Part shown: positions 8,252 to 12,121 of the stretch, piece after piece | Layout of the letters: every line of letters begins with the position of its first letter | Position numbering within the stretch: the first letter of the stretch is position 1 | The notes under the pieces: generated by a model | What the model was told of the DNA's origin: nothing | Seen by the model: the letters and a program-made list of their open reading frames with translations, nothing else | Database searches by the model: none | IMG/VR virus record: IMGVR_UViG_3300042549_000923 | Location: 1 to 26,719 of that record | From: a virus | DNA: 26,719 bases | Strand: one strand, 5' to 3' | Position numbers and translations under genes: made by a program

Positions 8252-8333
8252 GGGGGGAAAGCGGATGCTGTGAACGATCGCGGAACTCGGTACGGTGAGT
8301 TCGGACAACGGCGCAGACGCAGCGAGTACCCCC
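8252..8333 (+). ncRNA. Candidate structured RNA / leader element
   Basis: The 106-base gap between the MazG-like and nuclease genes is strongly structured. GGGGG (within 8252-8257) can pair with CCCCC (8329-8333); inside it GCTGTG (8267-8272) can pair with CGCAGC (8318-8323) using one G-U; and GAACTC (8283-8288) pairs perfectly with GAGTTC (8297-8302) over an 8-base loop. The nested arrangement fits a multi-stem RNA. The region is open in the nuclease frame from a GTG at 8270, but that extension (with a run of four Arg) does not look like coding sequence. It could be a cis-regulatory leader or a small RNA. No Rfam family was identified. Confidence 0.45.
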
Positions 8334-8350
8334 ACCTAATTGGTAAAAAT

Positions 8351-9376
8351 ATGCAAATTCCAGAATCAAACCAAACTATTGCGGCACTGATTGATGCCGC
8401 ACATGAGGCGCGTCAAGAAAAACCTCGGGCACACCTTGGTGCTTCTTTGCTGGGCCACGGTTGTGACCGCTGGTTATGGTTGTCGTTTCGCTGGGCTGTG
8501 CAGGAGAAGTTCAAGGGACGCATCCTGCGATTGTTTCGCCGTGGTCACATGGAAGAGTCAACCATTGTGTCTGACTTGAGAGCAGCCAACATTGATATTC
8601 GCCAGGTAAACAATGAACAAGCGCGTGTTGATTTTGGTTCGCATGTGTCTGGATCGCTTGACGGAATCATTGAGAAAGGTGTGCCGGGTGCCACCAAGAC
8701 TCGCCATGTGGCTGAATTCAAAACGCATTCCAAAAAATCGTTTGATGATTTGGTAAAAAAAGGCGTGGAAAAGTCCAAGCCAATGCACTATGTCCAGATG
8801 CAAGTGTACATGCGTGGCACAACTTTGGATCGTGCGTTATATGTTGCTATCTGCAAGGATGATGACCGCATTTACACAGAGCGTGTCGAATACGTGCCAG
8901 AGGTTGCCATCAAAGCAATTGAGCGCGGCCATCGCATTGCATTGTCAGACCGTATGCCTGAGCCAATGAGTGCAGACCCGACATGGTACGAGTGTTTGTA
9001 TTGCCCAGGTCACGACATGTGCTTTGAGTCAAAGACCACCAAGCATGTGAACTGCCGTACCTGTGCCCACGCCACGCCATTGTCTGACTCAACTTGGCAT
9101 TGCGCTAAATGGGACGATGTGATACCAGTGGACGCCCAGCACAATGGTTGCGACCACCATGTGATCCACCCAGACTTAGTTCCATGGCAACGTATGGAAG
9201 GTCCAGACCAATGGACTGCGCGTTACAAGATCAAAGACAAAGAAGTCAACAACGGTGAGCCATCGTTCGATGTTTACGGCAGCAAGGAATTGATTGCCAA
9301 TCCAGCAGCCTGCACCAGTGGTGATCCATTTATGGCCGAGATGCGTAAAGACTTTGGTGGAAGGATCGTTGGGTGA
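8351..9376 (+). CDS. Cas4/RecB-like PD-(D/E)XK nuclease with Fe-S and zinc-type cysteines
   Basis: The 341-residue protein has the PD-(D/E)XK core HVSGSLDGII (Asp104), HVAEFKTHS (Glu122-x-Lys124) and YVQMQVYM (Gln149/151). Cys38 (HGCDRW) and the C-terminal trio Cys215-x2-Cys218-x5-Cys224 reproduce the Cas4/AddB-type [4Fe-4S] ligand layout. A second cysteine/histidine set follows (CRTC at 235/238, Cys251, Cys267, His269/270) and looks like a zinc ribbon. Such enzymes trim DNA ends during phage recombination or replication. I choose ATG 8351 because homologous-looking sequence begins there; the Shine-Dalgarno is weak and a structured element lies directly upstream. An upstream GTG (8270) is less likely. 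Confidence 0.88.
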   Translation: MQIPESNQTIAALIDAAHEARQEKPRAHLGASLLGHGCDRWLWLSFRWAVQEKFKGRILRLFRRGHMEESTIVSDLRAANIDIRQVNNEQARVDFGSHVSGSLDGIIEKGVPGATKTRHVAEFKTHSKKSFDDLVKKGVEKSKPMHYVQMQVYMRGTTLDRALYVAICKDDDRIYTERVEYVPEVAIKAIERGHRIALSDRMPEPMSADPTWYECLYCPGHDMCFESKTTKHVNCRTCAHATPLSDSTWHCAKWDDVIPVDAQHNGCDHHVIHPDLVPWQRMEGPDQWTARYKIKDKEVNNGEPSFDVYGSKELIANPAACTSGDPFMAEMRKDFGGRIVG

Positions 9377-10188
9377 AACATGAAACAAAAACTATGCATC
9401 TCTTTGCCGGTATCGGAGGTGGCTTGCTTGCCGACCTCATTCTTGGCCACAGACCAATTGTCGCTGTTGAGTGGGATAAATATGCCTGCAAAGTCTTGCG
9501 AGAACGAGCAACAGACGGATGGTTTCCCGGATTGCATGTGTGGGAAGGGGACGTTCGATTGTTTGATCCATCCGAGTACACAGGAATCGTGGATTGCATC
9601 CATGCAGGATTCCCTTGCCAAGACATTAGTGTCGCTGGAAAGCAGGCAGGCGTATCTGAGGGAACCCGATCAGGTCTTTACCGCGAAATCCTGCGCATCG
9701 CTGGCGTGGTACGACCAAAGCAGTTGTTCTTGGAGAACGTATCAGCAATCCTTTCTAACGGACTCGGAACCGTACTCGGAGACTTGGCCTCGCTGGGGTA
9801 TGACACAAGGTGGCTCTGCATACGCGCATCCGATGTCGGAGCGCCGCATCACAGAGACAGATGGTTTTTACTTGCCAACGCCAACGGTAACAACGGGCGC
9901 ACAAGTTGCATGGGACAAGACGCCGGGGCAGACAGGGGGAACGAGTTTGGCGGGATGGGTGAAATACTGGCCGACACCGACAGCGCACAACGCCAAAGAT
10001 CAGAACTCGCCAAGCGAAGCGAAAAGGAATACGCCAACACTAGCTGCCCAAGTTGGTGGGAAGTTGAACCCAGATTGGGTCGGGTGGCTGATGGGATTTC
10101 CCATCGCGTGGGCCAACTCAAAGGTTACGGAAACGCGCAAGTCCCACTTCAAGCCGCAACCGCCTACCGATTGCTTGGAGGACTTTAA
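9373..10188 (+). CDS. dcm-like: DNA cytosine-5 methyltransferase
   Basis: The 271-residue enzyme contains the ordered C5-methyltransferase motifs: I LFAGIGGGLLADL, IV GFPCQDIS with the catalytic Cys, VI FLENVSAIL, VIII HHRDRWFLLAN, and IX/X EPRLGRVADGI...GYGNAQVP. It transfers a methyl group from S-adenosylmethionine to cytosine in a short target, probably protecting phage DNA from host restriction. The target-recognition stretch between VIII and IX is short and hydrophilic. The GTG start at 9373 overlaps the preceding stop and has AAGGA seven bases upstream; ATG 9394 is the alternative. Unusually, the whole gene is also open in another frame that carries a different recognisable protein family. 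Confidence 0.92.
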   Translation: MKHETKTMHLFAGIGGGLLADLILGHRPIVAVEWDKYACKVLRERATDGWFPGLHVWEGDVRLFDPSEYTGIVDCIHAGFPCQDISVAGKQAGVSEGTRSGLYREILRIAGVVRPKQLFLENVSAILSNGLGTVLGDLASLGYDTRWLCIRASDVGAPHHRDRWFLLANANGNNGRTSCMGQDAGADRGNEFGGMGEILADTDSAQRQRSELAKRSEKEYANTSCPSWWEVEPRLGRVADGISHRVGQLKGYGNAQVPLQAATAYRLLGGL

Positions 10189-10198
10189 TGCTCCGTGA
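9380..10198 (+). CDS. Second-frame overlapping protein (WPTPTA / WxxWLMGFP family)
   Basis: This frame is open for 272 codons inside the methyltransferase gene. It is not random. It contains DCMCGKGTFDCLIHPST, SMQDSLAKTL, SCASLAWYDQSSCSWRTYQQS, SETWPRWGMTQGG, LPTPTV, YWPTPTAHNAKDQ, RNTPTLAAQVGGKLNPDW and WLMGFPIAWA, which are the signature phrases of a phage/prophage protein family of unknown function that I recall both alone and near C5 methyltransferase genes. The translation start is uncertain: ATG 9380 has a poorly spaced ribosome-binding site; ATG 9482, 9536 and 9602 are alternatives. It ends eleven bases into the helicase gene. Either dual coding is real or the family partly reflects overprinting. 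The open frame and motifs are seen; expression is not shown. Confidence 0.55.
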   Translation: MKQKLCISLPVSEVACLPTSFLATDQLSLLSGINMPAKSCENEQQTDGFPDCMCGKGTFDCLIHPSTQESWIASMQDSLAKTLVSLESRQAYLREPDQVFTAKSCASLAWYDQSSCSWRTYQQSFLTDSEPYSETWPRWGMTQGGSAYAHPMSERRITETDGFYLPTPTVTTGAQVAWDKTPGQTGGTSLAGWVKYWPTPTAHNAKDQNSPSEAKRNTPTLAAQVGGKLNPDWVGWLMGFPIAWANSKVTETRKSHFKPQPPTDCLEDFNAP

Positions 10199-11771
10199 CT
10201 ACCAACAGAAGGCCATAGACGACCTCTACAAGTGGTTTTCTAATGGCAACCAAGGCAATCCCTGCATGGTGCTTCCAACCGGGTCTGGCAAGAGCCATAT
10301 CGTGGCAGCACTGTGCAAGGATGCATTACAGAACTGGCCTGAAACCCAGATTCTCATGCTTACGCATTCCAAGGAATTGATTGAGCAAAACGCTGAGAAG
10401 ATGCGCCAGCATTGGCCTGGTGCGCCGATGGGCATTTACTCAGCCAGCTTGGGCAAACGACAGCTTGGTGAACCGATTACCTTTGCCGGTATCCAGTCGG
10501 TAAGCAAGAAAGCACAACAAATCGGCCACATCGATCTGTGCATCATTGACGAATGTCACCTGGTGTCCCACAAGGACGAGGGTGGATACCGCAAGCTGCT
10601 CAAAGACCTGTTAGAGATCAATCCAGAGATGCGCGTGATTGGCCTGACGGCCACGCCATTTCGTCTTGGTCATGGTTACATCACTGACAAGCCTGCGCTG
10701 TTTGATTCGTTGTTGTACTCGGTTGGCATTGAGGAGTTGCTGTTTAAAGGGCACCTTGCGCCATTAAAAAGCAAATTTACCAAAGTCAAGTTGGATACAT
10801 CAGGCGTCCACAAGCGTGGCGGTGAGTTTATTGAGTCAGAGTTGCAGGCGGCAGTAGACAACGACGATCAGAACCAGTCTGTCGTGCGCGAGGTGATTTC
10901 TTTGGCCGGTGATCGCAAGGCATGGTTGTTCTTTTGCACTGGCGTTGACCATGCCCAGCACATTGCTGAAACTTTGCGTAGTCAAGGCATTGCAGCCGAC
11001 TGCGTGACTGGCGAGACACCAAAGAAAGAACGTGCCCAGATGTTGGCCGACTTCAAGTCTGGCAAGTTGCGTGCGCTGACTAACGCCAACGTGTTAACCA
11101 CCGGTTTTGACTACCCGGACATCGACTTGATTGCCATGCTGCGTCCAACGATGTCGCCAAGCCTGTACGTGCAGATGGCTGGTCGTGGCTTGCGCCCCAA
11201 GTCGCACACCGACCACTGCCTGGTGCTGGACTTTGCCGGCGTGGTATCAACGCATGGCCCCATCACCAACGTGCAGCCCCCAAAGAAAAATAACGAGGGC
11301 AACGGCGAGGCACCGATCAAGGTCTGCGATAACTGCCAAGAAATCTGCGCCATCTCTGTCAAGGTGTGCCCGGCTTGCGGTATGCCATTTCCTGCGTCAG
11401 AACCGGCAAAGCTGGCGCTGCGTCACGATGACATTATGGGATTGCAAGGCACCGACCTAGAAGTTACCGCATGGAGTTGGCGTGTTCACACCAGTCGCAC
11501 CAGTGGCAATGAGATGTTGGCGGTAACCTACTATGGTGGCCTGAGTGATGTCCCCATCACTGAATACCTAGTGGTGCTGAACCAGGGCTATGCCGGTGAC
11601 AAGGCACAGCAAATGCTGATTGCACTTGCCACCAAATCACAAGCGAGTCTGATGGGTGCAAACTCGTTGTTCTTGATGGTTGAGGCTATGAATAAATCAG
11701 TGCCACCAAGTAGCATTGAGTTTAAGAAAGACGGCAAATTTTTTAGAGTAATTAACCGGAGTTGGAAATGA
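10188..11771 (+). CDS. SF2 DNA/RNA helicase (DEAD/DEAH, RAD25/UvsW-like)
   Basis: The 527-residue helicase has motif I LPTGSGKS (29-36), II DECH (121-124), III TATP (154-157), and VI QMAGRGLRP (329-337). A short zinc ribbon follows (CDNCQEIC at 380-387, CPAC at 394-397), then about 120 residues without a recognised domain. Phage enzymes of this type remodel branched DNA or R-loops during replication and recombination. GGAGGA lies five bases before the ATG, and the start overlaps the methyltransferase stop (TAATG). Its neighbours (nucleases, methyltransferase, Sak4-like ATPase) place it in the early DNA-processing operon. Confidence 0.93.
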   Translation: MLRDYQQKAIDDLYKWFSNGNQGNPCMVLPTGSGKSHIVAALCKDALQNWPETQILMLTHSKELIEQNAEKMRQHWPGAPMGIYSASLGKRQLGEPITFAGIQSVSKKAQQIGHIDLCIIDECHLVSHKDEGGYRKLLKDLLEINPEMRVIGLTATPFRLGHGYITDKPALFDSLLYSVGIEELLFKGHLAPLKSKFTKVKLDTSGVHKRGGEFIESELQAAVDNDDQNQSVVREVISLAGDRKAWLFFCTGVDHAQHIAETLRSQGIAADCVTGETPKKERAQMLADFKSGKLRALTNANVLTTGFDYPDIDLIAMLRPTMSPSLYVQMAGRGLRPKSHTDHCLVLDFAGVVSTHGPITNVQPPKKNNEGNGEAPIKVCDNCQEICAISVKVCPACGMPFPASEPAKLALRHDDIMGLQGTDLEVTAWSWRVHTSRTSGNEMLAVTYYGGLSDVPITEYLVVLNQGYAGDKAQQMLIALATKSQASLMGANSLFLMVEAMNKSVPPSSIEFKKDGKFFRVINRSWK

Positions 11772-12121
11772 CAGAAAAAATACCATCAGAGCATTACGAA
11801 CAAGCCGTGCTTGTAAGTTGGTTCAGACGAAGTTATGCAGGTGTGCGTATCTTCGCAATACCGAATGGCGGGGCCAGAAGCATCACTACAGCCGCTGCGC
11901 TGAAGGTGGAAGGGGTGAGTGCTGGTGTACCTGATCTATGCGTCCCAGCTTGGGGCATGTGGATAGAGATGAAGCGCGTGAAAGGTGGCGTGGTCAGCAA
12001 GGAACAGAAGGACTGGATTGAATACTTAGAAAGTGTTGGGCAGTGTGTTATAGTGGGAAAAGGTGCGGAACACGCAAAGATTCAAATCAAGGAACACCAT
12101 GAAAAACGAAATCAAGAATAA
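11768..12121 (+). CDS. VRR-NUC domain nuclease
   Basis: The 117-residue protein is a stand-alone VRR-NUC domain of the PD-(D/E)XK superfamily: IPNGGARSITTAAALKVEGVSAGVPDLCVP (Asp56), WIEMKRVKGG (Glu67-x-Lys69), SKEQKDWIEYLESVG (Gln80) and CVIVG. Related proteins cleave branched or flapped DNA, including Holliday-junction-like structures. ATG 11768 overlaps the helicase stop (ATGA) and has GGAG six bases upstream; a TTG at 11762 would add two residues. Helicase and structure-specific nuclease in one operon suggest joint processing of recombination intermediates. Confidence 0.92.
   Translation: MTEKIPSEHYEQAVLVSWFRRSYAGVRIFAIPNGGARSITTAAALKVEGVSAGVPDLCVPAWGMWIEMKRVKGGVVSKEQKDWIEYLESVGQCVIVGKGAEHAKIQIKEHHEKRNQE

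Follow-up and report, generated by a model that had tools for sequence, protein, structure and literature searches.

In prokaryotes, long overlaps between genes on the same strand seldom gain acceptance, and as a rule gene callers retain only one of the two frames. M.AquI (CYCGRG) is a C5 methyltransferase made up of two polypeptides, and in the EcoHK31I system the gene for the beta polypeptide (about 176 aa) is nested within that for alpha and read in a different frame. The two-polypeptide nature of M.EcoHK31I, a C5 methyltransferase specific for YGGCCR, was described by Lee, Kam and Shaw 1995 (cited in PMC3404938). Its large polypeptide carries motifs I-VIII and X together with the predicted recognition domain, and its small polypeptide carries motif IX only, whereas the small subunit of M.AquI has both motif IX and motif X (PMC3404938). 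A second protein in another frame of phage methylase genes has also been described for the ShiLan domain, an out-of-frame HNH endonuclease (PMC11855218).

The DNA analysed here (the window) comprises 26,719 bases, corresponding to positions 1 to 26,719 of the IMG/VR virus record IMGVR_UViG_3300042549_000923. Its + strand contains two frames, F1 (alpha; 9373..10188, 271 aa, GTG start, TAA stop), the catalytic chain of a C5 cytosine methyltransferase, and F2 (beta; 9380..10198, 272 aa, ATG start, TGA stop), which is in frame +1 with respect to F1. Both are open from end to end for about 270 codons each on the same DNA, as a first-pass annotation of the window had stated. Like the large polypeptide of M.EcoHK31I, F1 has motifs I-VIII and X without IX, and a motif IX equivalent is located on a second polypeptide, F2, again encoded in an overlapping frame; this likeness concerns the division of motifs. 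Unlike in EcoHK31I, the second frame spans the whole of the first (272 vs 271 aa, as opposed to about 176 aa for EcoHK31I beta), and the gene belongs to a phage, where a scan of its neighbours revealed no recognisable restriction enzyme. Whereas the predicted recognition domain of EcoHK31I resides in the large subunit, the corresponding region of F1 is predicted to be disordered and recognition-like sequence is found in F2. The distribution of the catalytic half and the motif IX half over two polypeptides is shared with M.AquI, but motif X (GNAQVP) remains on the catalytic chain F1. In contrast to the ShiLan domain, a mobile endonuclease that has been inserted, F2 does not represent an insertion, and its conservation extends over catalytic motifs. 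The two-polypeptide principle is already known; its combination with full-length overlap and a near-obligate spread among phages and prophages was not found described. Literature searches for an overlapping-frame phage methyltransferase returned nothing specific, and the label of phrog_1008, the family matched by F2, reads 'DNA methyltransferase', with no mention of a +1 frame over phrog_363-type genes, the position in which F2 lay at the loci examined.

Division of motifs between the two frames

F1 contains motifs I (LFAGIGGG), IV (GFPCQ), VI (ENV), VIII (RDRW) and X (GNAQVP; 10129..10146, + strand) in this order, the last of which aligns to canonical motif X and includes an invariant GN at residues 253-254. 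F1 matched phrog_363 (E=2e-61), and PF00145 covered it at profile positions 2-168 of 324 only. Comparison with 27 single-chain enzymes by hhalign yielded an alignment of motifs I-VIII (E = 4e-33), followed by X only, and a canonical motif IX was not found in F1 with either PF00145 or hhalign. The first-pass description of F1 as containing every C5 motif holds for motifs I-VIII and X but not for motif IX, and the hallmark of a single-chain enzyme, motif IX plus a recognition domain between motifs VIII and X, was not seen in F1. In the AlphaFold model of F1, residues 1-173 mostly have a pLDDT above 90, residues 175-243 are disordered, and a helix is formed again at motif X. The model is devoid of the small domain, and a Foldseek search with it matched the catalytic domain of M.HhaI and M.HaeIII. 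By its motifs and predicted fold, F1 is a C5 cytosine DNA methyltransferase, with a presumed catalytic activity.

F2 matched phrog_1008 (E = 2.7e-22) and contains the previously noted motifs SETWPRWGM, WPTPTA, GGKLNPDW and WLMGFP. No Pfam or NCBIfam family was found for F2, and solved structures in the PDB gave no convincing sequence or profile match to it. Using hhalign, F2 was aligned with canonical enzymes at motif IX only (18 columns, E = 0.13, individually weak), with the motif IX equivalent GKLNPDWVGWLMGFP located at F2 residues 227-241 (10058..10102, + strand). By eye, GKLNPDWVGWLMGFP and RRLTPRECARLMGFP have L, P and LMGFP in common at equal spacing. Since the match is weak when taken by itself, the assignment of motif IX rests on single-chain intermediates, in which the motif corresponding to that of F2 lies between motifs VIII and X of one chain. 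In two single-chain enzymes from actinophages (L044 and L045), the PF00145 match extends to position 312-316 of 324 and the C-terminal half matches phrog_1008; RLNAAFAEWMMGLPDG of L045 aligns directly to canonical motif IX, RrLtpREcarlqgfp.

The DNA of F1 residues 175-242 (9895..10098, + strand), a predicted disordered linker in F1, encodes the recognition-like region and most of motif IX in F2. Conserved TPTA and LNPxW blocks of F2 lie over this variable region, and the part of F2 upstream of motif IX, including WPTPTA, probably holds the recognition sequence. As first reported, EPRLGRVADGI in F1 and NPDWVGWLMGF in F2 are encoded by common DNA. The N-terminal half of F2 (YDxxSxSWRT...SETWPRxGM) is conserved, is without counterpart in canonical methyltransferases and may have some other role; the DNA of its SETWPRWGM motif (9776..9802, + strand) codes in F1 for the LGDLASLGYD region just before motif VIII. 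AlphaFold prediction of F2 alone gave a mean pLDDT of 57.7 and a pTM of 0.25, a poor result that would be expected of an obligate partner and proves nothing.

The gene pair is tightly packed between its neighbours. The alpha GTG overlaps the TGA stop of the preceding gene, the TAA stop of F1 overlaps the ATG of the next gene, which encodes a DEAD/ResIII-type helicase (10188-11771), and F2 ends 10 bases past the end of F1. Within the dual start region GTGAAACATG (9373..9382, + strand), the alpha GTG is followed 7 nt later by the beta ATG. A Shine-Dalgarno-like sequence of putative function, GGAAGGA (9359..9365, + strand), which was read directly from the DNA, is situated 7 nt 5' of the GTG at 9373 and 14 nt 5' of the ATG at 9380. 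The ORF adjoining the pair upstream (8270-9376) has no Pfam match and is nuclease-like by appearance, and a VRR-NUC domain protein is encoded after the helicase (11762-12121). The neighbourhood of the pair is of the replication/recombination type found in phages.

Selection on the second frame

In the window, the longest F2 run comprises 269 codons, compared with a mean of 122 and a maximum of 256 in 2000 synonymous-codon shuffles of F1. Across the span of F1, the +1 frame contains 1 stop, the other same-strand frame 13. For relatives at 35-46% F1 identity, the similarity of F2 exceeded the null implied by F1 by z = 2.7 to 6.5, and for closer relatives it was about 10-15 standard deviations above the F1-implied level. 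The wobble base of each F1 codon is also position 2 of an F2 codon, so that F2 is usually altered by substitutions that are synonymous in F1. Among 112 non-redundant F1 genes, wobble identity at positions with the same residue was 0.565 vs 0.373 in the shuffled null, which ignores phylogeny, an effect that is limited but not removed by an internal control (F1 residues 91-110, where identity was at its minimum of 0.43) and by single-chain methyltransferases as an external control (0.385 vs 0.372 null). Identity peaked at 0.90 at F1 residues 228-245, the DNA of F2 motif IX, and reached 0.78 (vs 0.37 null) at residues 174-242 and 0.64 (vs 0.35 null) at residues 131-150. Over the N-terminal half of F2, the wobble excess at F1 residues 1-60 corresponded to a z of about 36-40. 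The wobble positions frozen in F1 lie where F2 has W, P, L, G and M residues that are conserved.

The start codon of F2 was evaluated in 96 distinct loci, defined as relatives with an [N/R]EL-type F1 beginning. ATG is used at 92 of these loci and GTG at 3, with the GTG starts arising where an F1 asparagine codon (AAT) is changed to arginine (CGT). In the majority of relatives, the alpha and beta starts are 4 nt apart (xTGAATGAG). At 15 of the 96 loci, the preceding F1 codon is a non-start, and the F2 start is retained in at least 14 of them; an in-frame stop is found immediately 5' of the F2 start in 87/96. In E. coli, the overlapping start codons AUGUG and GUGUG can yield both frames (PMC9841429). 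For the phage represented by the window, we infer dual initiation.

These data bear on the notion that F2 might merely shadow F1 without coding for a protein, its openness being due to chance and its similarity among relatives to the conservation of F1. The codon use of F1 leads to about 6 expected +1 stops per gene, such that long open runs are not rare, but in many relatives F2 is more open and more similar than under the synonymous-codon null, the wobble bases are frozen, the F2 start is conserved, and the +1 frame of canonical single-chain enzymes is interrupted by 7-33 stops; the shadow reading retains next to no probability. The first-pass annotation had anticipated for such a shadow that F2 would always accompany methyltransferase genes and that its non-synonymous sites would change freely; F2 does almost always overlap a methyltransferase, but substitution at its non-synonymous sites is not free. 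A chance open frame was rejected on the basis of codon shuffling, wobble constraint and the conserved start, and sequencing error as the source of the second frame was excluded by its recurrence across many independent records. Judged from these comparisons of sequence, F2 is a coding frame under selection and not open by chance. The earlier suggestion that the phage may use both frames gains support: both appear to be used, and F2 is conserved (phrog_1008) and constrained.

Distribution and rearranged forms

F2 was present in the +1 frame at 80/80 IMG/VR loci chosen by F1 alone and at none of 30 full-length single-chain PF00145 enzymes from bacterial genomes, whose +1 frame contained 7-33 stops. 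Among the loci tested, the pair of F1-type gene and F2 and the single-chain enzymes are mutually exclusive. Loci were also selected by F2 (184 loci, about 175 distinct: 28 + 79 from IMG/VR, 22 from annotated phages, 18 from GTDB contigs and 37 from genome samples, some of them redundant), and a methyltransferase was found in the -1 frame at all of them except L029. The GTDB contigs were searched with a single F2 sequence as query, the genome samples (two sets of about 400 genomes) with phrog_1008; 24/398 genomes matched in the phylum of L132 (Thiobacillus) and 4/398 in the phylum of L144 (Shouchella). Full-length overlap is usual in relatives close to the window, and in other relatives F2 is open over the second half to two thirds only. 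The records are inconsistently annotated, with alpha only, beta only or both.

A free-standing F2 gene was found only at L029 in IMG/VR, phages, plasmids, GTDB contigs and genome samples, with the single plasmid hit left out. At this locus, the catalytic half and the motif IX half are separate, non-overlapping genes, and one ORF contains LNPDWVGWLMGYP followed by GNAVVP. The first-pass proposal that the F2 family later moved away from its place of origin finds no support, given the overlap with a methyltransferase at all but this one of about 175 distinct loci. Its mention of separate phage genes with the F2 motifs fares no better: in the split pairs of actinophages (L039, L041, L042, L126-L128), the F2-like gene still overlaps the catalytic half and extends into the motif IX and motif X parts of that enzyme, an arrangement that is more AquI-like. 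Since F2-like genes nearly always overlap or continue the same enzyme, we regard F2 not as an independent protein but as the part that the methyltransferase lacks, namely motif IX and the recognition region.

Several loci display further arrangements. In L021 (3991-5286), F1 comprises 432 aa with a long extra stretch ahead of motif X, and a second F2-like C-terminal match lies farther downstream in +1, with the F2 ORF staying short. The methyltransferase of L130 (Mycobacterium phage Llama, 1805-2564) is split into two ORFs by a change of frame that affects F1 and F2 alike. In the record of Gordonia phage Geodirt (L128, 1643-2864), annotation is limited to gp4, the beta-type ORF, and leaves out the catalytic alpha ORF that overlies the 5' half of gp4. 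Among methyltransferases that are bacterial and probably of prophage origin, one group (L153, L155-L160, L166-L169) has a seemingly rearranged motif order, in which NEIDPYAAQWL and GDVDERSIE (II, III) are followed by FFAGIGG (I) and then PCQ (IV); a +1-frame beta ending in LNPxHxRWLMxxP was seen in five of the group. In the single-chain actinophage enzymes L033, L044 and L045, which have motif IX in the main chain, a SETWP-like stretch persists in +1 and is possibly a remnant of beta.

The persistence of this stretch despite a main-chain motif IX, together with the N-terminal half of F2 for which canonical methyltransferases offer no counterpart, could be taken to mean that F2 has a function of its own and is unrelated to the methyltransferase on whose gene it was overprinted. 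We consider this unlikely, given that F2 carries the very motif IX equivalent that is absent from F1, that it accompanies all F1-type genes tested but none of the tested canonical single-chain enzymes, and that F2-like C-termini are fused into single-chain methyltransferases. The overprinting envisaged by the first-pass annotation is correct insofar as part of F2 must be overprinted on methyltransferase motifs; the birth of an unrelated family at this site is not borne out.

In L017-L019, an indel fuses motifs I-VIII of F1 to motif IX of F2 in one 304-codon ORF, with motif X left out of frame. Exactly these parts would also be joined if a +1 ribosomal frameshift led from F1 motifs I-VIII to the recognition region and motif IX of F2, with the F2 start remaining unused, and in some relatives F2 is indeed open over its second half only. 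The product of such a frameshift would, however, be without motif X, which F1 conserves, and both conservation and constraint are seen at the start codon of F2 and in its N-terminal half, making this alternative highly improbable. As read from their sequences, L017-L019 show how near the split and fused states are.

Heterodimer model and significance

F1 and F2 very probably represent the alpha and beta chains of a heterodimeric C5 methyltransferase of the M.EcoHK31I type whose genes overlap over their whole length, with the assembly and activity of the heterodimer deduced from the division of motifs. Briefly, the ribosome would start both frames from the adjacent codons GTG 9373 and ATG 9380. 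Alpha would form the catalytic domain with the SAM site, the PCQ nucleophile, ENV, RxR and motif X, beta would supply motif IX as well as, probably, a large part of the recognition region, and the two chains would assemble into a single enzyme after translation. The arrangement probably arose in a single-chain ancestor through two frameshifts that compensated each other, the first located after motif VIII and the second before motif X. These would have moved the VIII-X segment to frame +1, with each chain keeping overprinted filler where its partner holds its domain. Judging from the general roles of phage methyltransferases, the enzyme probably shields the phage DNA from host restriction or may control gene expression.

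More tentatively, and with more doubt than confidence on our part, there may be a large and for the most part unrecognised clade of phage and prophage C5 methyltransferases that are obligately heterodimeric by full-length overlap and in which the N-terminal half of beta is, in addition, a newly invented domain. If so, this domain would have been overprinted on catalytic motifs and might serve in subunit docking or have a separate anti-host role.

The overlap described here is strongly supported and has a clear reason, as the two frames would encode two halves of one enzyme, and it recurs across many host groups. Cloning of 'the methyltransferase' of such a phage would probably give an inactive half. 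The F1/F2 family provides a clean test case for the evolution of two jointly constrained frames and for dual initiation from starts separated by only a few bases.
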